46,951 nucleotides of DNA from a virus: the IMG/VR virus record IMGVR_UViG_3300021185_002429, positions 1-46,951 of that record; one strand, 5' to 3'. This document shows positions 17,297 to 39,949 of the stretch, one piece after another (position 1 is the stretch's first letter; the number at the start of each line of letters is the position of its first letter). Made by a program: the position numbers and the translations under genes. Under the pieces are notes generated by a model. The model saw nothing but the letters and a program-made list of their open reading frames with translations, made no database searches and was not told where the DNA came from.

Positions 17297-17863
17297 TTAT
17301 AAGACACCTACTTGATGCATAACATCTATATTATTAACAACTGCAATAGTTAGTAGTCCATTTGCTATTACCATATCATCTTCAGTATATGTATTCCATA
17401 TAATAGTTCCGAATATTAGTTTTAGAGCTAGTATTTCACCTGCTGATGGTTTTTTTCCCAGAATAGGATTTACCTCATAAACGTAAGGACTCTTAAGGCC
17501 GTGATAAGTTGTAAGTGCGTCCATTGAATTAATAAAGATAAAATATGATTTTATGACTACGCCGTTATGGTGTGAAAATTGTAACCCGCTCAGATTTACC
17601 TTTGACTTGTATGTTATCGACTCGAGTAAAGCTTCTTTCTTTACACTTTCCAGCAGTGAACTGTGATAACAACACTCGAACCCCATCATAATTTCTTGTT
17701 TGGCCTTCGAGTCTAGCCGCGAGATTAACGGCATCTCCAATGACGGAATAGTCAAATCGAGATTCTGATCCCATGTTTCCGACGATGCAGTCGCCGGTAT
17801 TGATACCAATGCCAACATCAATCCTAGGAAGACCTTGAGTTTCAAGTTCTTTAATAAGTTCAT
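17297..17863 (-). CDS. DUF5658-like membrane protein overlapping the cyclase gene
   Basis: The C-terminal 85 residues look like a DUF5658-type membrane protein: INSMDALTTYHGL, VNPILG, then two hydrophobic stretches (about 142-156 and 165-177). Before the first span the frame has no ATG, GTG or TTG until M59/M60 (17689/17686), so any normal start lies inside the cyclase gene. The furthest ATG (17863) has AGAGG 6 nt upstream and encodes a signal-peptide-like start (LKVFLGLMLALVSIPATASS). That would be a 299-nt out-of-frame overlap with the cyclase catalytic domain. Start is uncertain; the C-terminal gene is likely real. Confidence 0.5.
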   Translation of the reverse strand: MNLLKNLKLKVFLGLMLALVSIPATASSETWDQNLDLTIPSLEMPLISRLDSKAKQEIMMGFECCYHSSLLESVKKEALLESITYKSKVNLSGLQFSHHNGVVIKSYFIFINSMDALTTYHGLKSPYVYEVNPILGKKPSAGEILALKLIFGTIIWNTYTEDDMVIANGLLTIAVVNNIDVMHQVGVL

Positions 17864-19391
17864 CTGCTGCCTCTAATATTTCTATTGCTGTATCTACGGC
17901 TAATTCCGCATGATTATCACAAGGTAAAGGAGCATTCCAAAATGCCATAATACAATCTCCCATGTACTTGTCTATTGTTCCACCATTCTTTAAAATAATT
18001 TTAGTCATAGTGTCCAAATAATTATTTATAATATTGACAAGCCCTTCCGGGTCATTGTTATTTTTATAGTGTTCTGATATTGGAGTAAATCCTACAATAT
18101 CCATAAATAAGAAAGTCATATCTTTTCTTTCGCCACCAAGTCGTAATAACGATGGGTCTTTCTGTAATAACATAACTTGTCGTGGATCCAAATAAGTTTC
18201 AAACTGTTTCTTAATTTGTTGTCGTAACATATATTGTTTATAGAAGTTATTGAAACTGCCTGAGGTAAAGGTTATTATATATAATATTAATGAATATGTA
18301 AGGTCAAGGAGCACATACCATTTATTCCAAACATAATAAACAGTTACGACTGATCCGAAACAGAAGACCAGAAATCCGATTCCAGAAACCCAAACAGGTG
18401 CCCGATATACTAACAGGACTAGAAGAGCAGCAAGAACTGTCGATACGAGAATTTCTATTAATGCCGTCCAGAGAGGACGTGAAATGGAGCTCTCATCAAG
18501 GACAGTCTGTATCGCAGAAGCCTGAAGTTGATGTGCAGACTGAAGACCAACAGGTGTTGGAATTTGAGAAGCCAGACCCGATGCAGTTAATCCAATCAAG
18601 ACGACTTTCCCTTCAAGATTTGGAAGATCACTACCATACTCTATTTCAGGAAATGAATAGTTAGTATTAATCCAGATTGATCCATTTGGATCAGTAGGTA
18701 TTTGAAATGGTCTTAAAATAATTTCTTCGATACCAGTATCATTTACTTTGACTGTATATGATGGCTTTTGATTTGCTACTCTAATTAATTCTAAAGTAAA
18801 TGAAGGATATAGTTGTTCGTTTATTTGTGATAAAAGTGGTATTCTTCTTACTACTCCATCAACTTCTGGCATACCATTAATTAATCCATGACCCCAAGCA
18901 CCTTGCTCTATTTCTGGTATATTGGTTACTAAACCATCATATTCTATAACCCAATCATTAGGGTCGCCAGTTCCAAAGATTGCAGTTCCAACATATGGAG
19001 CACTTTCACTTCTACCTCGTGGGTCAGCATCTTGTGATAATATAATTCCATTATCTTTTACCCATGACGAGAATACTTCATCTCCACCAAATCTATCATT
19101 CTCAGGGAACATAATAGTAAAACCAATAAGTCCAGCATTTGCATTCCTTAAATCAGAAATCATTTGTGCGAACTGTTGTCTAGGAAATGGCCACTGACCA
19201 TATTTTTCCAGTGCTTCTTCACCTATATTAATTAAAACTATATCTTCGGATTTTTTATCTGGTAGTGATTGGATATATTGATCAAATGTAATTAACCTAA
19301 CCTGTTGAACTATATCGGGATCCGATATACGAATAAATAGACCTAGTGCTATTATTGCTACAGTTGTCCAAATGGACGTAATATATTTCAT
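17565..19391 (-). CDS. CHASE2 sensor-adenylate cyclase (class III)
   Basis: A 608-residue membrane sensor enzyme that would make cAMP. Order: N-terminal span (about 5-20); periplasmic CHASE2 domain (about 25-300, with VLINIGEEALEKYGQWPFPR and GKVVLIGLTA); three spans (about 308-328, 332-352, 358-375); short linker; class III cyclase domain (about 422-595). Catalytic residues look intact: metal Asp431 (FMDIVGFT) and Asp479 (DKYMGD), adenine-selecting Lys475 and Asp547, transition-state Asn556 and Arg560. The K/D pair points to adenylate cyclase. It overlaps the 96-residue gene upstream by TAATG. GC is raised: 59 of 120 bases at 17701-17820 against about one third nearby, suggesting recent transfer. 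Confidence 0.93.
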   Translation of the reverse strand: MKYITSIWTTVAIIALGLFIRISDPDIVQQVRLITFDQYIQSLPDKKSEDIVLINIGEEALEKYGQWPFPRQQFAQMISDLRNANAGLIGFTIMFPENDRFGGDEVFSSWVKDNGIILSQDADPRGRSESAPYVGTAIFGTGDPNDWVIEYDGLVTNIPEIEQGAWGHGLINGMPEVDGVVRRIPLLSQINEQLYPSFTLELIRVANQKPSYTVKVNDTGIEEIILRPFQIPTDPNGSIWINTNYSFPEIEYGSDLPNLEGKVVLIGLTASGLASQIPTPVGLQSAHQLQASAIQTVLDESSISRPLWTALIEILVSTVLAALLVLLVYRAPVWVSGIGFLVFCFGSVVTVYYVWNKWYVLLDLTYSLILYIITFTSGSFNNFYKQYMLRQQIKKQFETYLDPRQVMLLQKDPSLLRLGGERKDMTFLFMDIVGFTPISEHYKNNNDPEGLVNIINNYLDTMTKIILKNGGTIDKYMGDCIMAFWNAPLPCDNHAELAVDTAIEILEAADELIKELETQGLPRIDVGIGINTGDCIVGNMGSESRFDYSVIGDAVNLAARLEGQTRNYDGVRVLLSQFTAGKCKERSFTRVDNIQVKGKSERVTIFTP

Positions 19392-19681
19392 TAATTAAAT
19401 TTCTTTTGTAACCACTTAAAGATTGCGTATATTGATAAACCATAAAACGCAAGAACACTCATAGGCAAAGCGATATACGCTAGTTCCCACGGAGTGAGGA
19501 ATAATATTTCCCAGGTAAAGTTTGCAACGGCTTCTGCATCACCTAATGGTTGGAGTTCAAGCATTTCTGAATCCATTTCAACACCTGCTTCATCCATCAT
19601 AACAATAAGTTCATCGTATGACTCAGTGTCTAAACAGATTTCAAATTCTTCTGGACAATTTCCTTCTCCGCCGTATTCCAT
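19391..19681 (-). CDS. Small membrane protein between curlin-like protein and cyclase
   Basis: 96 residues: an acidic, Met/Glu-rich N-terminal half with two Cys (C9, C16), then a hydrophobic part (about 55-90, WELAYIALPMSVLAFYGLSI) and a basic end (KWLQKKFN). One or two spans. TAATG overlaps on both sides tie it to its neighbours. No family recognised; a partner of the cyclase or of the curlin-like protein is possible. Confidence 0.6.
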   Translation of the reverse strand: MEYGGEGNCPEEFEICLDTESYDELIVMMDEAGVEMDSEMLELQPLGDAEAVANFTWEILFLTPWELAYIALPMSVLAFYGLSIYAIFKWLQKKFN

Positions 19682-20373
19682 TAGTTACCCTGCGAAACAT
19701 TAATTGTACAACCACCTACTGTATAACAATTATTGGTAATAGAATAACTCATATTCGTACTACCTTGTTGTAATAGATTTAATGTTGTTGGTTCGGTTCC
19801 TTGCAATCTTATTTGAGAATTATGATTTGCACTTCCTTTTTGCATGAGGTCTACTGATGAACCATCAGCTGTACCATAAAAATATGCATGAGAATAATGA
19901 GAACCTCCGCCTTCTTGCCATGATTCAATATTAGTATCATCAGCGTGTACATCTAAATTAAGTGTATGAGAACCATGCTGATAAACATCTACTGTATTAT
20001 CGTTACCCCATAGATGTCGACCATAAGTTGCACCATCATATTGTAATACTGTTTCATCATTACCTGTACCATCAATATCTCCACCCCATGATTTACCTGA
20101 GCCCCAATATGATACCCAGGATATAGAATTACCTGTACCATTCTGTGTTAAATCAAATGAATTGCTTGCATGTGCAAATGAAAAATTAACGCTATTACCA
20201 TAACCTATTTGAGTAATATTTAAATTTAAATCATCTCCGCTACCTACTTGTTCTACGTGAATGTGATTATCATCTGTAGGACCTGCGTATAATGGCATTG
20301 CTAAAAAGATACACGCACCCCACGGCAGTATCCAGTATTTAAAAAATTGTTGTTTTATTTTAGTCCAGTTCAT
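19681..20373 (-). CDS. Curlin-repeat secreted protein A
   Basis: 230 residues with an N-terminal signal segment (about 12-30, ILPWGACIFLAMPLYA). The mature part carries repeated Q-x-G-x-x-N units of the curlin type: EQVGSGDDLN, TQIGYGN, TQNGTGN, YQHGSHTLN, MQKGSANHN, QQGSTN and SQGN. Repeats are less regular than in CsgA. A C-terminal Cys pair (NNCYTVGGC) could form a disulfide. It is the likely cargo of the CsgG pore encoded nearby. It has its own late box 5 nt before the ATG. Amyloid formation is inferred from the repeat class. Confidence 0.78.
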   Translation of the reverse strand: MNWTKIKQQFFKYWILPWGACIFLAMPLYAGPTDDNHIHVEQVGSGDDLNLNITQIGYGNSVNFSFAHASNSFDLTQNGTGNSISWVSYWGSGKSWGGDIDGTGNDETVLQYDGATYGRHLWGNDNTVDVYQHGSHTLNLDVHADDTNIESWQEGGGSHYSHAYFYGTADGSSVDLMQKGSANHNSQIRLQGTEPTTLNLLQQGSTNMSYSITNNCYTVGGCTINVSQGN

Positions 20374-20378
20374 ACTTC

Positions 20379-20386
20379 TATTTATA
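20379..20386 (-). promoter_or_regulatory. Internal late promoter box, leaderless configuration
   Basis: Exact TATAAATA, 5 nt before the ATG at 20373. It would give a separate late transcript for the curlin-like protein, the small membrane protein and the cyclase. Confidence 0.72.
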
Positions 20387-21487
20387 CTAGTTTTGATTTA
20401 TAATTACCATAATATCTTCGCCATCATTACCTGTAATAATACCTTGATATCCAGGAGTTGTTGTGTCTAATGTAAAGCTACTACCTGCAGCAAATTCAAT
20501 TTCTATTAGTCCATTTACATTACGATATAATACTAAATTACCATCTCGTAAAAATACATTAAATTGTGATTCATCATTTAAACCTCTTCTTGCACCTTTA
20601 ATATCAAACTCGCCCAATGTATCAAATAAATCACCAGAATCAACTATTGCCAAAAAGTCTAATAAAAACTCAACATCTAATTCATCAATATCAAGTTCAC
20701 TAAATTCGTCCAACTCATCTTCTGCTAATTCATCTTCTTCTAATTCAGTAAATTCTAAGAAGTCGATATCAAGTAATCCTTGGTCTTCGTTCTGTTCGTC
20801 CTTAAGTTCTTCCTCTATTCTTTGTTTTACTTCTGCCGGTGGATTTACAATAAACATATTATCAATTAAGGCTGGTGTAATACCAGTAATTACAGTTGAA
20901 GATGTCGGAGGACTATCTAAAGTAGTTACCATAGTTGCTGCATAAGCCTGATCAAGTGTTACAGTACCTGCCGAATTAGATACTTCAATCACACCTGATG
21001 GATTACCTTTATCATCTGGTAGCAAAATAACAAGGCTTCTTCCTAATTCATCTATTGTTGTAGTAAAATCAGTTCCTCTTACAGCAATCGTAGCAGTAGG
21101 AGTTTCTATCTTTATGTTTGCGTTATTAACTAACCCTAATTTACCAGATGCAAATCTTGCAGTTCCCATTGCCATCTTTAATGACATTTTGGATAAATTT
21201 GGATTAGGGTCGTAATATATCTCGTCTATTAAAACGAGTGAGTGTTCTTTAAGTTGTAGTTCTGCCTTATCTAAAAATTCTATTAACATACGACCTTTGG
21301 CAGTTTGGGCTTGGTCGTATAGTTCTATTTGTTCTGTTTGAATTGCTTCTTTATCGCGTAGTATAGAATTTACGCCGGAAGATTCTCTAACTTCACCAAT
21401 AGGGTTAGCAAAACTAACCCCACTGATGAGTAGTAAAAGACTAGCTGTCGTTACCGACGTCTTTTTGATTAAGTTGAATAATTGCAT
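20387..21487 (-). CDS. FecR-domain periplasmic/surface protein
   Basis: 366 residues: signal peptide (about 1-27, ending GVSFA), then a FecR domain (about 28-180) with RMLIEFLDKAELQLKEHSLV and the diagnostic IKIETPTATIAVRGTDFTTT. A strongly acidic linker follows (about 225-290, many E/D with L) and a beta-rich C-terminal domain (about 300-366, LYRNVNGLIEIEFAAGSSF). In bacteria FecR-domain proteins are often encoded next to CHASE2 cyclases (general knowledge), so a sensor-partner role is plausible. The start overlaps the second curlin-like gene by 47 nt; no later ATG precedes the signal peptide. Confidence 0.85.
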   Translation of the reverse strand: MQLFNLIKKTSVTTASLLLLISGVSFANPIGEVRESSGVNSILRDKEAIQTEQIELYDQAQTAKGRMLIEFLDKAELQLKEHSLVLIDEIYYDPNPNLSKMSLKMAMGTARFASGKLGLVNNANIKIETPTATIAVRGTDFTTTIDELGRSLVILLPDDKGNPSGVIEVSNSAGTVTLDQAYAATMVTTLDSPPTSSTVITGITPALIDNMFIVNPPAEVKQRIEEELKDEQNEDQGLLDIDFLEFTELEEDELAEDELDEFSELDIDELDVEFLLDFLAIVDSGDLFDTLGEFDIKGARRGLNDESQFNVFLRDGNLVLYRNVNGLIEIEFAAGSSFTLDTTTPGYQGIITGNDGEDIMVIINQN

Positions 21488-22175
21488 TGTCTGATGTAAC
21501 TGTTAATACAATATTTGCATTAGGTGTTGCACAACCACCGCCTGAAGCAGCACATGTACCAGATATTTGATTAATATCAACATCTGCAGAATCACCTGTT
21601 AAAGTGAATTCTAAGTTTTGTTCACCATCTTTTTGCAATGTATTAATGTTATTACTATCACCAGTAATTTCAAAATCCCAAATGTTATCGTCTGATTCCC
21701 AGTCGATATCAAAGACATTTGAATTACCAATTAAGATTAAATCTGCATTCAATCTCTCTGCACTTAGACCATAACCTTGATCAATATCAAAAGTGTTTGA
21801 ATCACCTGTAACGTCAAAGTTTATGTCTGAGTCATCTGCACTACCAACGTTACCAATATTCCAATCTATAACATTTGAGTCACCTGTATAGTCAAGCTTA
21901 TAGGTTGAACTATCTGCTTTAACTGGACCAAATAATATATTTTGATTACCAGCGAAATCCAAATCAAATTCTAAGCTAGAACCTGTAATTGCCATTACAG
22001 AACCTGACCCACTTGAAAAGTTATCTCCACCAATTTTGTTACCAAAACCGATTTGATCAATATACAATTTAAGTGTGTCACCAGATTGTGTGATTTTAAT
22101 TTCGTTATCATCAGTGGCTTGTGCAAAAACGAACGATGTCGACAATAGCAATGCTATACTTAAAAGTTTATTCAT
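21441..22175 (-). CDS. Curlin-repeat secreted protein B
   Basis: 244 residues with a clear signal peptide (MNKLLSIALLLSTSFVFAQA). The mature protein repeats TGDSN-type units (97, 123, 171, 193; variants GNSN at 150 and AGNQN at 75) followed by alternating hydrophobic residues, and it has Q-x-G motifs near the N-terminus (TQSGD, DQIGFGN). It shares with protein A the start DDN-x-I-x-I-x-Q-x-G, a QIGxGN motif and a Cys pair near the C-terminus (GTCAASGGGC), so the two are probably paralogues. It overlaps csgG by 8 nt. Probable pore cargo. Confidence 0.75.
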   Translation of the reverse strand: MNKLLSIALLLSTSFVFAQATDDNEIKITQSGDTLKLYIDQIGFGNKIGGDNFSSGSGSVMAITGSSLEFDLDFAGNQNILFGPVKADSSTYKLDYTGDSNVIDWNIGNVGSADDSDINFDVTGDSNTFDIDQGYGLSAERLNADLILIGNSNVFDIDWESDDNIWDFEITGDSNNINTLQKDGEQNLEFTLTGDSADVDINQISGTCAASGGGCATPNANIVLTVTSDNAIIQLNQKDVGNDS

Positions 22176-23124
22176 TTTCGTTTACCTCTTCCTTTAATGG
22201 ATGTTTTTCGTTTTTACCATCAACTTGATGGGGGTGACGATGTCCATCCTCAATTATCCAAAGACCTCTATCATGTCCTTGGTATATTAGTTCAAGTACG
22301 GCAGCCTCAATAGCTGTTCGTACCGCGTATGTCACGGACTCATTATTACCCACTCCGTCCTCATATTCTACTAGGGTAGTACTATTATCAACAAATCTGA
22401 AAATATCTCCACTACCACCATAACTAAGGATTGTTTTCTTAGCTTGGACATTCAATAATACTTCACCTGTAAGAACTGAAACAGCTCTTACAGATACGGT
22501 GACGACATCTTGTTGATATCGTTTACTTTTACCAATACCCAATAGCCGTGCGCCTCGGCCTCCTGACTGAATATTAGTATCATATCCAATAATTCCACCT
22601 TCCATAATAATTCCAGCGAATAGGAGTGGATTTAATGGTTGCGGACCACCATCGCCCGCAAATTCTTGTCTTGCACTTCTGATTATCTGACGTTCTCTTA
22701 CCAGATGATCAATGCCTTGTCTTTCTACTACTCTAAACCAGGTTCCTCCACCCGCCGTTTTAAGAGCATCTATTAATAATTCTGTACCACCTTGTGTAGT
22801 GGCTGTAGAGAAATCAGCAATACCTTCTCTTGATTTTCTCTGTCCTGTTTTATCTATAAAATTATATACTGCGACTACTGGTCTTTCCTTTGCTGGTGGT
22901 AAGTCCAATAATTCAATATATGAAGGAAGTCTTATTGCTTCTGCTTCTTCTACACAGATATAAGAATGCCTTACTGTTTTTTCAATTCGTGCAATTGCAT
23001 TTGGACCTACATAAGGATCATCAAATGTAATCTCTTTACATTCTTGTGGTTCGTCTGACCAAACTGGAGACGATGATTCATTCATTAGTCCTAAGACTAA
23101 TAGTAATGCTATAAATGCTTCCAT
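22168..23124 (-). CDS. csgG: Curli secretion pore CsgG
   Basis: CsgG forms the nonameric outer-membrane channel that exports curli subunits. The homology is plain: RPVVAVYNFIDKTGQRKSRE, DFSTATTQGGTELLIDALK, then GGIIGYDTNIQSGGRGARLL and a C-terminal GHDRGLWIIED, parallel to E. coli VAVYNFSDQTGQ, NFSTAVTQGATAMLVDALK, GYESNVKSGGVGAR and GIDRGLWDL. The N-terminus is unusual: a weakly charged signal (MEAFIALLLVLGL), no lipobox cysteine, and about 55 extra residues with two Cys before the core. It is followed by a His-rich, charged tail. It lies 5 nt after csgF. Confidence 0.95.
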   Translation of the reverse strand: MEAFIALLLVLGLMNESSSPVWSDEPQECKEITFDDPYVGPNAIARIEKTVRHSYICVEEAEAIRLPSYIELLDLPPAKERPVVAVYNFIDKTGQRKSREGIADFSTATTQGGTELLIDALKTAGGGTWFRVVERQGIDHLVRERQIIRSARQEFAGDGGPQPLNPLLFAGIIMEGGIIGYDTNIQSGGRGARLLGIGKSKRYQQDVVTVSVRAVSVLTGEVLLNVQAKKTILSYGGSGDIFRFVDNSTTLVEYEDGVGNNESVTYAVRTAIEAAVLELIYQGHDRGLWIIEDGHRHPHQVDGKNEKHPLKEEVNENE

Positions 23125-23129
23125 TTTAT

Positions 23130-23636
23130 TTAACCCCCATCAGGGTCTTGACCAAAGTTACCTGTTCCTACTGGTATTTCAATAACAGTTGTAGTCCCAT
23201 CGGAATCAACAATTGTCATTTTAATATATTCTGATCCATCAGCATTCGTTATGACTTCATATGTTACTGTATTGCCTTCTAATACAAATGAACCATATCT
23301 TACTGACCCATCATTACTAAACATTGATTCTACTAATTGTTTAGACATTTGAGCGTAAATTCTTGATTCTAAGTTTCGAATGAACTTAGCCATTGTTGTG
23401 TTTTCTGCATCTCTTTCAGCGGCCTTTCTTGCAGCTTCCATAGCATCTTTTATTGCTTTCTTTCTGCTGTGTTCTTGATTCTCAATTGTTAAATAATGAG
23501 CACCTGTTCCCTGGCCACTAAAGGAAGGATTTTTAAATTTATGTGTAATATCTGCTGCAGCAACTTCAGGGGAAATTGCCAATACACTTATCATGAATAA
23601 TATAATAAGTACAGATAATTCAAGTCTATCTTTCAT
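23130..23636 (-). CDS. csgF: Curli assembly factor CsgF
   Basis: CsgF binds the CsgG pore mouth and narrows it, and guides subunit nucleation. From the ATG at 23636 (168 residues) the protein begins with a good signal peptide (about 1-28) and then ADITHKFKNPSFSGQGTG, which matches the conserved mature N-terminus of CsgF (FRNPNFGG type) that inserts into CsgG. The C-terminal strands (KMTIVDSDGTTTVIEIPVG) parallel the end of E. coli CsgF. A basic helix (about 55-75, SRKKAIKDAMEAARKAAERD) is an insertion. The longer start at 23675 would overlap the upstream gene and mask the signal peptide. Confidence 0.88.
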   Translation of the reverse strand: MKDRLELSVLIILFMISVLAISPEVAAADITHKFKNPSFSGQGTGAHYLTIENQEHSRKKAIKDAMEAARKAAERDAENTTMAKFIRNLESRIYAQMSKQLVESMFSNDGSVRYGSFVLEGNTVTYEVITNADGSEYIKMTIVDSDGTTTVIEIPVGTGNFGQDPDGG

Positions 23637-23901
23637 CTTTTCCATTACCTCTATTCTTTCGCTTTTTCTTTTCATTTTCTCTGTATTCTAAAACTACATT
23701 TACTTTTTGTTGTAATCTTATCAAATCTTGATCCAACATCCTTGTCTGATCAATAACTCTTATAAGAGCCATGTGCATTTCATCTAACTTCGGCTCTATA
23801 TGTTCTCCAATATACCACCATACATAATATATAAAATATCCTAAACCTACGGACATCACAATTGGAAACCCGTAGTCAGAAACTAATTGACCTACATCCA
23901 T
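23626..23901 (-). CDS. Small membrane protein with coiled coil, csg-linked (1)
   Basis: 91 residues: one N-terminal span (about 11-33, GFPIVMSVGLGYFIYYVWWY), then a heptad-like helix and a very basic tail (KKKRKNRGNGKDER). It has the same plan as the next gene upstream, so they may be a duplicated pair. The position between an endolysin and csgF allows a holin-like or curli-accessory role; neither is shown. Confidence 0.6.
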   Translation of the reverse strand: MDVGQLVSDYGFPIVMSVGLGYFIYYVWWYIGEHIEPKLDEMHMALIRVIDQTRMLDQDLIRLQQKVNVVLEYRENEKKKRKNRGNGKDER

Positions 23902-24197
23902 TAGTCTCTCCTAGTATCTATTTTGCCGTCCTCAATAAAGTTTTCTGCACGTGCAATTCTATCAGTATCTGGTCTTAAATCTAAGGCCGAAGATACTAAC
24001 AAATCAATTTTTATCATTTCATTACTCATTGTTCGTGCTCTATTCTCCAAACTCTGAGCAAATATAGTTAAGGTGTTTATCTTATCTACTATTCCTTCTA
24101 GTATCTGTTTGATTACTAAAAAAATAAAGAATCCCATAACTAAAGACCCAGCAATTGGAGCACCTACATCCGCAATGAGTGTAAATATACTCTCCAT
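23901..24197 (-). CDS. Small membrane protein with coiled coil, csg-linked (2)
   Basis: 98 residues: N-terminal span (about 8-30, ADVGAPIAGSLVMGFFIFLV) followed by a coiled-coil-like helix (about 35-70) and a charged tail. First gene of the csg operon. Its ATG lies 5 nt after a late box and has no Shine-Dalgarno. Function unknown; a holin candidate by plan only. Confidence 0.6.
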   Translation of the reverse strand: MESIFTLIADVGAPIAGSLVMGFFIFLVIKQILEGIVDKINTLTIFAQSLENRARTMSNEMIKIDLLVSSALDLRPDTDRIARAENFIEDGKIDTRRD

Positions 24198-24202
24198 GGA
24201 AG

Positions 24203-24210
24203 TATTTATA
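24203..24210 (-). promoter_or_regulatory. Late promoter box of the csg operon, leaderless configuration
   Basis: Exact TATAAATA, 5 nt before the ATG at 24197, directly downstream of a terminator (24235-24258). Confidence 0.78.
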
Positions 24211-24234
24211 AGAAAATAAATCTTAGATGCTAAA

Positions 24235-24258
24235 AATCCTCCGTTTTAACAGAGGATT
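24235..24258 (-). terminator. Intrinsic terminator upstream of the csg operon
   Basis: Minus strand: 7-bp stem AATCCTC / GAGGATT with a 10-nt loop, the 3' arm running into TTTTT. It ends the 24539 transcript 14 nt after that gene's stop. Confidence 0.8.
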
Positions 24259-24539: not shown

Positions 24540-24720
24540 ACTTTTCTCCCATTTCTTGTCTTGTTAAATTCCAGTCAGAGTGTCTGAAAAACCCTTGTTT
24601 ATTATGACACCAAAACCAACCTCTGTCTTCGCCTTGATCCTCATTGGTATGATAATATCTTACACTGCCTCGAGTCTCGACATGAGTCTCTCTGCCCTGT
24701 TCGTCACTTGTTTGTACCAT
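24523..24720 (-). CDS. Small hypothetical protein overlapping the endolysin end
   Basis: 65 residues from ATG 24720 (a start at 24756 is also possible). Trp/His-rich core (GWFWCHNKQGFFRHSDWNLT). It overlaps the endolysin by about 60 nt and the next gene by 17 nt. Without it a 120-nt gap would remain. Real but unknown is the best reading. Confidence 0.45.
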   Translation of the reverse strand: MVQTSDEQGRETHVETRGSVRYYHTNEDQGEDRGWFWCHNKQGFFRHSDWNLTRQEMGEKYGINS

Positions 24721-25130
24721 CTTGAATCTCTCCCTTCTATCGCCGCAGTTTTCCAATCTTCTTCTAGGATTGCTGCATGCATTTTTTTAAATTTACTTAA
24801 TCTGGTTCTACCCATATTAAACATCATGTTGACCAATATCTGCTGGACTTCGTCGGGTAAGTCTCCAAAGACCCCTTCTTCGTATAACAGATTACATTCT
24901 TCGATTGCGGTGTCAAGGTCGCGTTCGAAGCATTCTCTAACTCGCTCTTCGGAAACAGCTGTTCCAAGGTCAGCTCCGTGTTCAGGGTCTGACTCCAGTA
25001 CCAGGTGTCCCACCCCAAAAGTAGGATATCCCAGATGGTCATGATAAATTTCATAAACCACCCCTTCGTCGATTTTTAATTGATTGAATACTGCTTCTCT
25101 ATCTAATTTTGTATCTTTTCTAAAAAACAT
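24660..25130 (-). CDS. e: T4-type endolysin (GH24 lysozyme)
   Basis: 156 residues, close to T4 lysozyme (164). The catalytic triad keeps T4 spacing: Glu22, Asp31, Thr37 within LKIDEGVVYEIYHDHLGYPT, then FGVGHLV. The C-terminal lobe has LVNMMFNMGRTRLSKFKKM, as in the family. No signal peptide, so a holin is needed for release; the nearby small membrane proteins and the distant spanins (39952-40873) would complete lysis. It starts 1 nt after the methyltransferase stop. Confidence 0.93.
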   Translation of the reverse strand: MFFRKDTKLDREAVFNQLKIDEGVVYEIYHDHLGYPTFGVGHLVLESDPEHGADLGTAVSEERVRECFERDLDTAIEECNLLYEEGVFGDLPDEVQQILVNMMFNMGRTRLSKFKKMHAAILEEDWKTAAIEGRDSRWYKQVTNRAERLMSRLEAV

Positions 25131-29613: not shown

Positions 29614-29823
29614 TTACTTAAAATATTTGTCTAACATCTCAAGTTTATCTACATAATCAGCCATTAAACCAAGTTCTTTTTCAAGTGATTCCATCATATC
29701 TGGATGTTCTGCAACAGCCACTGGATTACTTAACATTAACTCGATGTTCATTCTATGTTTTTCGGCTTGTCCTTGTAGATATTGAACCGATGTGTTGACC
29801 ATTCTATCTCTTAAACTTTTCAT
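29614..29823 (-). CDS. Small conserved helical phage protein
   Basis: 69 residues from ATG 29823 (ATGA with the peroxiredoxin stop). MKSLRDRMVNTSVQYLQGQA, then a helix of alternating charge with AEHPDMMESLEKELGLMADY. It recurs in T4-like marine phages. Function unknown. Confidence 0.62.
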   Translation of the reverse strand: MKSLRDRMVNTSVQYLQGQAEKHRMNIELMLSNPVAVAEHPDMMESLEKELGLMADYVDKLEMLDKYFK

Positions 29824-30341
29824 ACTACAAAATCCTCTCCTGGAGTCCATTCACAACCTGTAAGACCACCAGCCTTTAATGCCTGTAATGTTCTTAATAT
29901 TTCTTGTGCATTTCTTCCTGTATCTAATGCATTAATAGACGCATGTTGAATTGTTCTGTTTTTATCAAAAATGAATGTTGCCCTATAACAAACACCTTCT
30001 TCTGCATTTATAATACCTAATTCACAAGATAAATCTAAACCACAATCAGCCGCAAGTGTATGTCTAATATTACCAATTAGTTCATTATCTTTTTTCCAAG
30101 CCAACTTACAAAATTCGTTATCTCCACTGATACCAATTACATTCGCCTCATCTACCAACATATCCATTCCAGCAATTTCTGTTGGACAAATAAAGGTAAA
30201 ATCTTTAGGATAAAAGTAAACTACTGACCAATCATGTTTTAATGGCTGATAGTTTTCTTTTACTTCTACTCTCACAAATTCGTTATTTTCATTAATTCCC
30301 TGGAGTGAGAAAGCCGGGAATAAATCTCCTACTGTTAACAT
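29820..30341 (-). CDS. Peroxiredoxin (AhpC/TSA family)
   Basis: 173 residues. It reduces peroxides through a peroxidatic cysteine, here Cys52 in FYPKDFTFICPTEI. A probable resolving Cys163 is in LTGCEWTPG (typical 2-Cys, AhpC-like length about 187). The YRATFIFDKNRTIQHASIN strand completes the family fold. A thiol partner such as the phage glutaredoxin (34418-34636) could recycle it. It is a metabolic gene carried by the phage, probably to counter oxidative stress during replication. Confidence 0.92.
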   Translation of the reverse strand: MLTVGDLFPAFSLQGINENNEFVRVEVKENYQPLKHDWSVVYFYPKDFTFICPTEIAGMDMLVDEANVIGISGDNEFCKLAWKKDNELIGNIRHTLAADCGLDLSCELGIINAEEGVCYRATFIFDKNRTIQHASINALDTGRNAQEILRTLQALKAGGLTGCEWTPGEDFVV

Positions 30342-34417: not shown

Positions 34418-34636
34418 TTATCCTAGTTTTTCTTTTAATTTATCGTACCCACCAATCTTTTCGCCTTCAAGTATAATTTGTGGGAATGTTCTGGCTGTAG
34501 GAAATTTCTCAACCATTTCCTGTCTATTAAAATCTTTATCAAGTTGAAAATATTCATATTCTAAACCTTTTTGCGTACATAATACTTTTGCCATATCACA
34601 AAATGGGCATTGTTCTTTTCCATAAATTTCTATCAT
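34418..34636 (-). CDS. Glutaredoxin
   Basis: 72 residues with the CPFC redox site (GKEQCPFCDMAK), cis-Pro region TFPQIILEG and the GGYDKL glutathione-side motif. It supplies electrons to the ribonucleotide reductase encoded upstream in the same operon; it may also serve the peroxiredoxin. Confidence 0.93.
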   Translation of the reverse strand: MIEIYGKEQCPFCDMAKVLCTQKGLEYEYFQLDKDFNRQEMVEKFPTARTFPQIILEGEKIGGYDKLKEKLG

Positions 34637-35073
34637 AATGTCTCCTCAATAAATTTACCAATAGTTTCTATATCTTCGTCTGATAACATTCCAGCTTGAG
34701 CCCACATTGTTGAGCTCATGTTACCTACTGTCTCTCTGTTCTTGTATGCATATAATCTTTGAGATACATATTCGTTATCTCGTCCGGCCAACGCAGGGAA
34801 CGGTCCCATACCTTGTCCTTGTTGTCCGTGACATGCTGCACATCCTGCCCAAAGTCCTCTAATGGAACTATATGGATCTGATGCGGCCTCTGCTTTTTTT
34901 GCTTGAAGGATTTCAACCACTGTACCATTAACTTTAACATATTCTTCATAACATTCTCCATAACATGACCCGGTACTACTATAACCAGAGTATTCTAGGT
35001 CAGGGTAAATTTTAAAGCCAAAAAACAACGAAATAATCATTGTTCCAAATAAGGCCATTCCTAATTCTTTCAT
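34633..35073 (-). CDS. Membrane-anchored c-type cytochrome
   Basis: 146 residues: N-terminal signal anchor (about 5-22), a linker with two Cys (C37, C41), then a class I cytochrome c domain (about 72-146). The heme site is C78-A-A-C81-H82 (GCAACHGQQG), followed by FPALAGRDNEYVSQRLYAY; Met119 or Met123 is the likely distal ligand, and SDEDIETIGKFI is the closing helix. The fold matches cytochrome c4/c553 or cbb3-associated electron carriers. It lies between glutaredoxin and nrdB with ATGA overlaps. Host heme-attachment machinery would be required. Confidence 0.88.
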   Translation of the reverse strand: MKELGMALFGTMIISLFFGFKIYPDLEYSGYSSTGSCYGECYEEYVKVNGTVVEILQAKKAEAASDPYSSIRGLWAGCAACHGQQGQGMGPFPALAGRDNEYVSQRLYAYKNRETVGNMSSTMWAQAGMLSDEDIETIGKFIEETL

Positions 35074-38710: not shown

Positions 38711-39037
38711 TTACTTTTTCTTTACTTTTTGCTTCTCAAGTTTTTCAATTCTGGCGATTAGAGCTGAATATGCTTCGAACTCATGTAATTCCTTACATGG
38801 GTGTGAATTCTTTTCTATCTCGTCTAATCTTTGCGCGACTAAAGGATACTGTTTTCTAAATTTAGCATCCTTTTTCATGAGTTCTAATTCGTACTTCTCT
38901 GCAAAATATTGCATAAATTTATCTACTTGTTTTTGAAACCAAATACCAAGTGTAGTATCCTGGAACCATTTATAGAATGATGATCCTATAATAGATGATA
39001 GAATAGATTTTAGAGAGAGTACAATTAGCCAATTCAT
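38711..39037 (-). CDS. Conserved small phage protein with amphipathic start and coiled coil
   Basis: 108 residues: hydrophobic/amphipathic N-terminus (MNWLIVLSLKSILSSIIGSS), charged helical centre, coiled-coil end (YSALIARIEKLEKQKVKKK). A late box lies 22 nt before the ATG, inside the lipase end. Function unknown; possibly membrane-associated. Confidence 0.6.
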   Translation of the reverse strand: MNWLIVLSLKSILSSIIGSSFYKWFQDTTLGIWFQKQVDKFMQYFAEKYELELMKKDAKFRKQYPLVAQRLDEIEKNSHPCKELHEFEAYSALIARIEKLEKQKVKKK

Positions 39038-39789
39038 TTTTTTTCTGCCTTTTTAAGTTTATTTATAGCTTTTACATAGTTAGGCATACCATGGTCTACA
39101 ATACCATCAAAGAATTTAAATCTCTTCCATGAATTAATAATACCATAAAAAGTATCAGCCCATGATGGTCCTGCTGCTCTTTGACCATTTCTGTCAAAGT
39201 ATATCATAGCACCATGATGTCTAAACCCTAACCACGCTGGTGGTATTCTACATACGATATCATTATTATTCATAAATCTATAATGATCACATGTAATATG
39301 TCTTACAAATTTTGGACCACCAACTCTTGGTGAACCAAACGTGTGTAGTTCTTCAGGTGCATGTCTTGTGGCCGCAATTGTTGCCATTGCTGCACCTAAA
39401 CTATGACCAGTCATCCAAACATCTTTTACATTTCTTAACCCATCATTGTGTTCAATTTCTGCAAGAACATCCATCCATAAATCATTAACTTCTTTTTGGA
39501 ATCCACCATGTACTTTACCACCTGCCATTGCAGTTTGTTTAATAACATTTAAATCTGCCATAACATCATTTAATTTTGATGGTTCAGTACCTCTAAATGC
39601 AAACCATAAGTCTGTTCTATTCTTTGCGATGAGCACTTCTGCCCCGTCTCTACTAATTAACTTAACAGAAGTAAATCCTAATTTTTTACCTGCAGTCTCT
39701 GCTGGTTTTGGATTCATATAGGCAATCGCAGATAATTTTGCTGCAATTTCTGCCCTTTCCCATAAGTGTAAATCTTTTGCCTTTGCCAT
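39034..39789 (-). CDS. Class 3 lipase-type alpha/beta hydrolase
   Basis: 251 residues from ATG 39789 (AGAGG upstream; the longer frame runs into the next gene). Lipase_3 features: FRGT oxyanion region (65-68), nucleophile Ser130 in VWMTGHSLGAA, acid Asp177 (NNNDIVCRIPP) and His233 (IVDHGMPNY), a complete triad. No signal peptide, so it acts in the cytoplasm or leaves at lysis, or is packed in virions. It sits directly beside the spanin pair, which suggests a role in membrane breakdown at lysis. Confidence 0.87.
   Translation of the reverse strand: MAKAKDLHLWERAEIAAKLSAIAYMNPKPAETAGKKLGFTSVKLISRDGAEVLIAKNRTDLWFAFRGTEPSKLNDVMADLNVIKQTAMAGGKVHGGFQKEVNDLWMDVLAEIEHNDGLRNVKDVWMTGHSLGAAMATIAATRHAPEELHTFGSPRVGGPKFVRHITCDHYRFMNNNDIVCRIPPAWLGFRHHGAMIYFDRNGQRAAGPSWADTFYGIINSWKRFKFFDGIVDHGMPNYVKAINKLKKAEKK
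39060..39067 (-). promoter_or_regulatory. Late promoter box inside the lipase end
   Basis: Exact TATAAATA on the minus strand, 22 nt before the ATG at 39037. Confidence 0.6.
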
Positions 39790-39790
39790 T

Positions 39791-39949
39791 TTACTTCCTC
39801 TTAGTTTTACTAGTTTTTGATTTATATACTCTTTTATACGCTTCATTCTTGGCCGTTTTAGGGTCGTCCGCAATGTATCTGCCTTTCGCATCTCTTGCTC
39901 TCACTTTTTCCCAGCCGAAGAAATCTGCTAATTTGCTCCAAAAAGCCAT
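39791..39949 (-). CDS. Small basic conserved phage protein
   Basis: 52 residues, MAFWSKLADFFGWEKVRARD, then a Lys/Arg-rich tail (VYKSKTSKTKRK). A common small gene of marine myophages. GAGG lies a few nt upstream. Placed between lipase and spanins. Function unknown. Confidence 0.62.
   Translation of the reverse strand: MAFWSKLADFFGWEKVRARDAKGRYIADDPKTAKNEAYKRVYKSKTSKTKRK

Follow-up and report, generated by a model that had tools for sequence, protein, structure and literature searches.

Known curli-cyclase clusters and CHASE2 cyclases

Gene clusters that combine curli export with an adenylate cyclase (AC) have already been published for pelagiphages as type VIII secretion system-adenylate cyclase (T8SS-AC) clusters, with the order small protein(s)-CsgF-CsgG-CsgA/B-FecR-CsgA/B-AC (Wittmers 2022, PMC9599517). 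The same arrangement is found in the viral record IMGVR_UViG_3300021185_002429, analysed here over its full 46,951 bases (the window), which carries a T4-type gp32 and in which CsgF, CsgG, curlin repeats, FecR and AC occur in order; like the published clusters, it belongs to a marine phage and has alphaproteobacterial affinity. The last gene of the arrangement encodes a CHASE2-class III adenylate cyclase of 608 amino acids (17565..19391, minus strand, as are all features given below). With a probability of roughly 0.6, we read this cyclase as the signalling component that closes a late-expressed phage operon for the export of curlin-type fibres via CsgG and CsgF.

Among isolated phages, HTVC008M encodes a full-length homologue annotated as 'adenylate/guanylyl cyclase' (AGE60353.1, 45% identity) in the same operon position, a position shared by the full-length homologue of Melnitz (QZI95054.1, 37% identity). 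In the Melnitz paper, csgG and csgF are assigned to a lysis pore, csgA and csgB are said to be lacking and the cyclase is unmentioned (Buchholz 2022, PMC9004378). For the pelagiphage clusters, a 'histidine kinase' is described upstream (Wittmers 2022); if this corresponds to the pair of phrog_18771 genes at the start of the run in the window, products of about 75-140 amino acids would be too short for HisKA plus HATPase_c, and a Pfam search of the pair gave no match to either domain, only YvrJ below the cut-off.

Bacterial CHASE2 cyclases (S. meliloti CyaD1, CyaD2 and CyaK; Thalassospira, Rhodospirillales) share the CHASE2 plus class III layout, whereas they reach about 720-840 amino acids with a C-terminal extension, compared with mostly 604-645 in phages, and the two groups form separate clades in the wider of two trees (100/100). 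The Sinorhizobium enzymes answer a signal relayed by the outer-membrane beta-barrel NsrA (PMC13001267). In Burkholderia, FecR beside a CHASE2 kinase constitutes the biofilm-regulating operon BiofilmReg (PMC5192318), similar to the phage pair in that a periplasmic FecR-domain protein accompanies a biofilm-linked CHASE2 sensor; there, however, CHASE2 drives a histidine kinase, while in the phage it is joined to a cyclase.

The cyclase and its active site

The initial annotation had described a phage-encoded membrane adenylate cyclase with an intact active site beneath a full CHASE2 sensor and three spans, and domains, residues, predicted structure and selection agree with this. The reading frame holds a CHASE2 domain at residues 18-322, the presumed periplasmic sensor (18426..19340; PF05226, E 1.7e-42), and a class III catalytic domain at residues 423-604 (17580..18125; Guanylate_cyc PF00211, E 2e-21). 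An AlphaFold model (mean predicted local distance difference test score, pLDDT, 88.7) has helices at residues 7-23, 307-330, 333-358 and 365-397, which puts three spans behind CHASE2 and one in front of it. The predicted cyclase domain matches P. aeruginosa CyaB (3r5g) with a Z of 26.5 and 2.0 Å over 183 residues, in a structural alignment that spans residues 388-608 only and leaves the CHASE2 part outside.

D431, K475, D479, D547, N556 and R560 all occur at the positions claimed for them, with the correction that D547 does not have the role given to it: alignment with cyclases of known structure assigns Ser549 to the purine-specifying Asp/Thr position, at which CyaB (3r5g) and OaPAC (5x4t) have Thr. 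The position of Lys475 is Glu in the guanylate cyclase Cya2 (2w01). The class III set is thus complete, with D431/D479 for the metals, K475/S549 for the base and N556/R560 for the transition state, and Lys475 together with Ser549 suggests that ATP is the favoured substrate, so that the product would be cyclic AMP (cAMP).

One might instead regard the protein as a passenger without enzymatic role, degenerate or merely structural. This is highly improbable, given that D431, K475, D479 and R560 are kept in 81/81 phage cyclases and Ser549 and N556 in 80/81, and that ratios of nonsynonymous to synonymous substitution (dN/dS) of 0.03-0.22 indicate purifying selection. That the phage protein is a membrane-anchored class III cyclase, predicted to be catalytically competent, is therefore well supported. 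The end of the gene is overlapped by an open reading frame with a DUF5658 match (17297-17863), whose listed start lies inside the cyclase gene; the match begins at residue 110 of this frame, and translation probably starts near 17560.

Residence of the cyclase in phages

Second-messenger synthesis of this kind had initially been called rare in phages, a view that does not hold, as IMG/VR contains at least 600 stretches with a relative of the cyclase, a further 302 are retrieved with a query of the sister type described below, and the gene is annotated in isolates. Nine records of a phage collection match it, six of them over the full length and from the HTVC008M and Melnitz isolates; the annotation as cyclase is present in HTVC008M and four Melnitz records. 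Cyclase matches in supposed Acinetobacter phages were set aside as bacterial sequence, since mfd, isc and hsc genes flank them.

The identical module order ([phrog_18771 x2]-csgF-csgG-curlin-FecR-curlin-AC) recurs in 36 of the 39 viral loci with at least 5.2 kb of upstream sequence, and also in HTVC008M and Melnitz. Cyclase distances track those of gp32 (Mantel r 0.84), as well as those of CsgG (r 0.73), CsgF (0.73) and FecR (0.80), with 0/2000 permutations in each case, and the curli-phage cyclases form a single clade (98/85) in a 72-row tree. Because order is shared, residues are conserved, dN/dS is low and distances are correlated, the cyclase is a long-time resident of phages, co-inherited with its module.

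These results bear directly on the proposal of the initial annotation that the gene was recently gained from a cellular host of higher GC content. In its favour are a 120-bp stretch with 49% GC within the gene and the fact that the nearest non-phage relatives are alphaproteobacterial. The underlying count of 59/120 at 17701-17820 is correct; compared with the entire window, however, where 120-bp windows average 40.8 GC (s.d. 5.9) and five other sites, in other phage genes, peak at 61-66, it does not mark an island, and this interpretation was dropped. The whole gene has a GC content of 0.362 and an average third-position GC content (GC3) of 0.235, similar to neighbouring genes. Its codon usage deviates only modestly (z 3.3, rank 9/50 genes), below gp32 and other phage genes, so that it is a weak outlier at best. 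The single curli-phage clade and the co-divergence with gp32 amount largely to long vertical descent within phages, the very pattern that the annotation had set against its own proposal, and for this lineage recent gain can now be considered extremely improbable.

The curli module as a probable late unit

The cyclase is the final gene of a compact run that starts with the phrog_18771 pair and continues with CsgF, CsgG, curlin, FecR, curlin and a 96-amino-acid protein. The two phrog_18771 proteins (98 amino acids, first module gene, 23901..24197; 91 amino acids, 23626..23901; both family matches) each have one N-terminal hydrophobic stretch. They are followed by CsgF (23130..23675; PF10614, E 4.7e-16) and the outer-membrane pore CsgG (22168..23124; PF03783, E 5.4e-49). 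Curlin repeats occur in two proteins, of which one exceeds the Pfam cut-off: the first (21441..22175; PF07012, E 0.0029, below cut-off) has a beta-rich model with a predicted template modelling score (pTM) of 0.73, and the second (19681..20373; PF07012, E 4.2e-7) is a candidate secreted fibre protein. A fold search with the curlin protein gave no PDB match under E 0.001, and no CsgE was seen in the run. Between the curlin genes lies that of the FecR-domain protein, with an N-terminal hydrophobic segment (20387..21487; PF04773, E 3.1e-8), and ahead of the cyclase that of the 96-amino-acid protein (19391..19681), which has one C-terminal hydrophobic stretch and is found only in some near relatives.

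A TATAAATA box at 24203..24210, 5 bp ahead of the first module ATG, is a candidate T4-type late promoter, TATAAATA/NATAAATA being the late promoter of T4-like phages and cyanophages (PMC2984593). A second, internal box precedes the second curlin gene (20379..20386). Within the window, 6 of the 13 TATAAATA boxes are no more than 30 bp away from the start of a gene, against 0.17 expected, and in 21/41 loci the first module gene has the box near its start, compared with 1.4% of background positions; the same scan never found it at the second phrog_18771 gene, csgG or FecR. Just 5' of the promoter candidate, a hairpin followed by a T-run is terminator-like by eye (24232..24257). Box and hairpin together lead us to regard the module as a late unit of its own, and the curli-cyclase genes are accordingly read as an operon with predicted late expression.

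Late expression would also suit a lysis timer, in which CsgG/CsgF would be a gated pore (Buchholz 2022), triggered or timed by the cyclase. A phage lysozyme (endolysin) gene is the upstream neighbour of the module (24660..25130; PF00959, E 1e-9), and such a gene lies upstream or downstream in 33 loci, the window included. One phrog_18771 protein has a weak holin-family match (phrog_4898, E 0.0086), so that a holin-like role is possible, and a pinholin has been proposed (PMC9004378). A mere pore would nevertheless make the conserved curlin and FecR genes superfluous, and the sister cyclases accompany an adhesin exporter rather than lysis genes; we consider the timer unlikely, if the least unlikely of the alternatives.

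Elsewhere, the window encodes a c-type cytochrome among its highest-GC patches (34633-35073; PF00034, E 1.2e-7), an AhpC/TSA-family peroxiredoxin (29820-30341) and a class 3 lipase (39034-39891).

Sister cyclases beside type I secretion

A cyclase on a phage-like contig in a 'Rickettsiales' metagenome-assembled genome (L086), used as query, retrieved the 302 IMG/VR stretches mentioned above. Within this set, the cyclases encoded after HlyD group together (100/98) in a clade adjoining the curli cyclases. Among the 30 loci of this set with at least 0.9 kb upstream, HlyD precedes the cyclase in 26, with ABC and OEP genes before HlyD, and the other 4 are curli clusters; downstream, two phrog_18771 genes follow the cyclase in 60/67 loci. 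Adhesins of 1000-1700 amino acids are encoded upstream of OEP, and 4/4 tested with Pfam have a FecR domain at the N-terminus together with repeats of the cadherin and/or RTX type. Contigs of 137-148 kb carrying this arrangement are assigned to phages because they encode a T4-type DNA polymerase, a clamp loader, an endolysin and a virion protein; searches of these contigs for terminase (phrog_2) and Gp23 gave no match.

The constant set across the two unrelated exporters is thus a FecR domain, a CHASE2 cyclase and the phrog_18771 pair. The late promoter motif is absent ahead of 5/6 type I secretion adhesin genes, and late expression is therefore argued for the curli module only. In two contigs (L261 and L324), a type I secretion cyclase occurs alongside a curli cluster that has its own cyclase, of 548 amino acids. 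In L086 and L259-L319 the ABC part has about 250 amino acids; no ABC ATPase domain was found in it and no energising ATPase in the operon.

The type I secretion variant is not among the clusters in the accessible part of Wittmers 2022. This sister context, a whole operon in bacteria, the late-promoter evidence and a missing cAMP receptor are what is added here to the published clusters; in the literature searched, outside which most subscription journals lie, no report was found of the sister context, of the complete operon in bacteria or of the lack of a receptor.

Bacterial counterparts

Many Alphaproteobacteria encode a CHASE2 cyclase (160/385 sampled genomes at E 1e-60), and few encode CsgF (6/385 above cut-off). 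Two genomes of one family, one of them titled Caulobacteraceae, carry csgF-csgG-curlin-curlin-FecR-AC (L085:5992-12049 and L244); among the sequences examined, no other bacterium shows the phage arrangement. Their cyclases are 93% identical, and the first copy is flanked, by eye, by genes resembling those for glycosyltransferases, TonB receptors and peptidases. In this family, curli loci other than these two mostly have neither FecR nor cyclase close by, and in some bacteria a FecR gene lies directly upstream of a CHASE2 cyclase.

The 72-row tree places the two bacterial cyclases as sister to the curli-phage clade (97/91). A strict sister group, and with it a bacterial origin, is contradicted by the wider tree, in which they are nested within the phage radiation, while phage monophyly is not rejected (approximately unbiased test, p 0.063). 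As the trees disagree and in view of this p value, transfer may have run in either direction between phages and bacteria.

Proposed role and possible targets of cAMP

Late in infection, curlin-type fibres would be exported by CsgG/CsgF, and the FecR protein, sent to the periplasm, would signal the state of fibre export. CHASE2 would sense FecR, its putative ligand or partner, whereupon the cytoplasmic cyclase, dimerised, would produce cAMP, which may tune fibre display or host physiology. The cyclase thus probably helps to control the surface display of the infected cell.

Several points weigh against this fibre-export reading. The Burkholderia and Sinorhizobium systems serve as analogies only, and related clusters in part lack members of the set, as seen here and in Wittmers 2022. 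The host of the window phage is presumed to be SAR11 from kinship with HTVC008M. In a family of 117 genomes, which we take to be SAR11 because a 16S probe sequence matches it exactly, 112 lack a cNMP_binding domain. A phage-encoded cAMP receptor was likewise sought in vain in the window and six phage records, these six, including the complete HTVC008M and Melnitz, having no cNMP_binding domain.

The same scarcity argues against a more conventional route, in which the cyclase would reprogramme host transcription via a receptor of the cAMP receptor protein (CRP) type, as cAMP acts on enterobacterial csgD (an idea of Wittmers 2022). The route from cAMP via csgD to curli is known in model Gammaproteobacteria (PMC9599517). 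In the SAR11 family, however, just 5/117 genomes have the domain, two of these in short, CRP-sized frames, and 3/117 have a class III cyclase match; together with the phage records, two of them complete, this makes the CRP route quite unlikely.

Beyond the fibre-export reading itself, we propose more tentatively, at somewhat less than even odds, that FecR, the CHASE2 cyclase and phrog_18771 form a portable cassette that has been joined to curli type VIII and to type I exporters. Its cAMP would arise in hosts mostly without a known receptor, and would then have to act on an effector not yet recognised or be used locally to control phage-made surface fibres.

The lack of a receptor in 112/117 SAR11-family genomes makes the target of phage cAMP a directly testable question. 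If the cassette controls fibres, infected SAR11-like cells would, late in infection, bear an extracellular structure that is both made and regulated by the phage, in the case of many marine phages, and remodelling of the host by these phages would extend beyond the usual view centred on metabolic genes.
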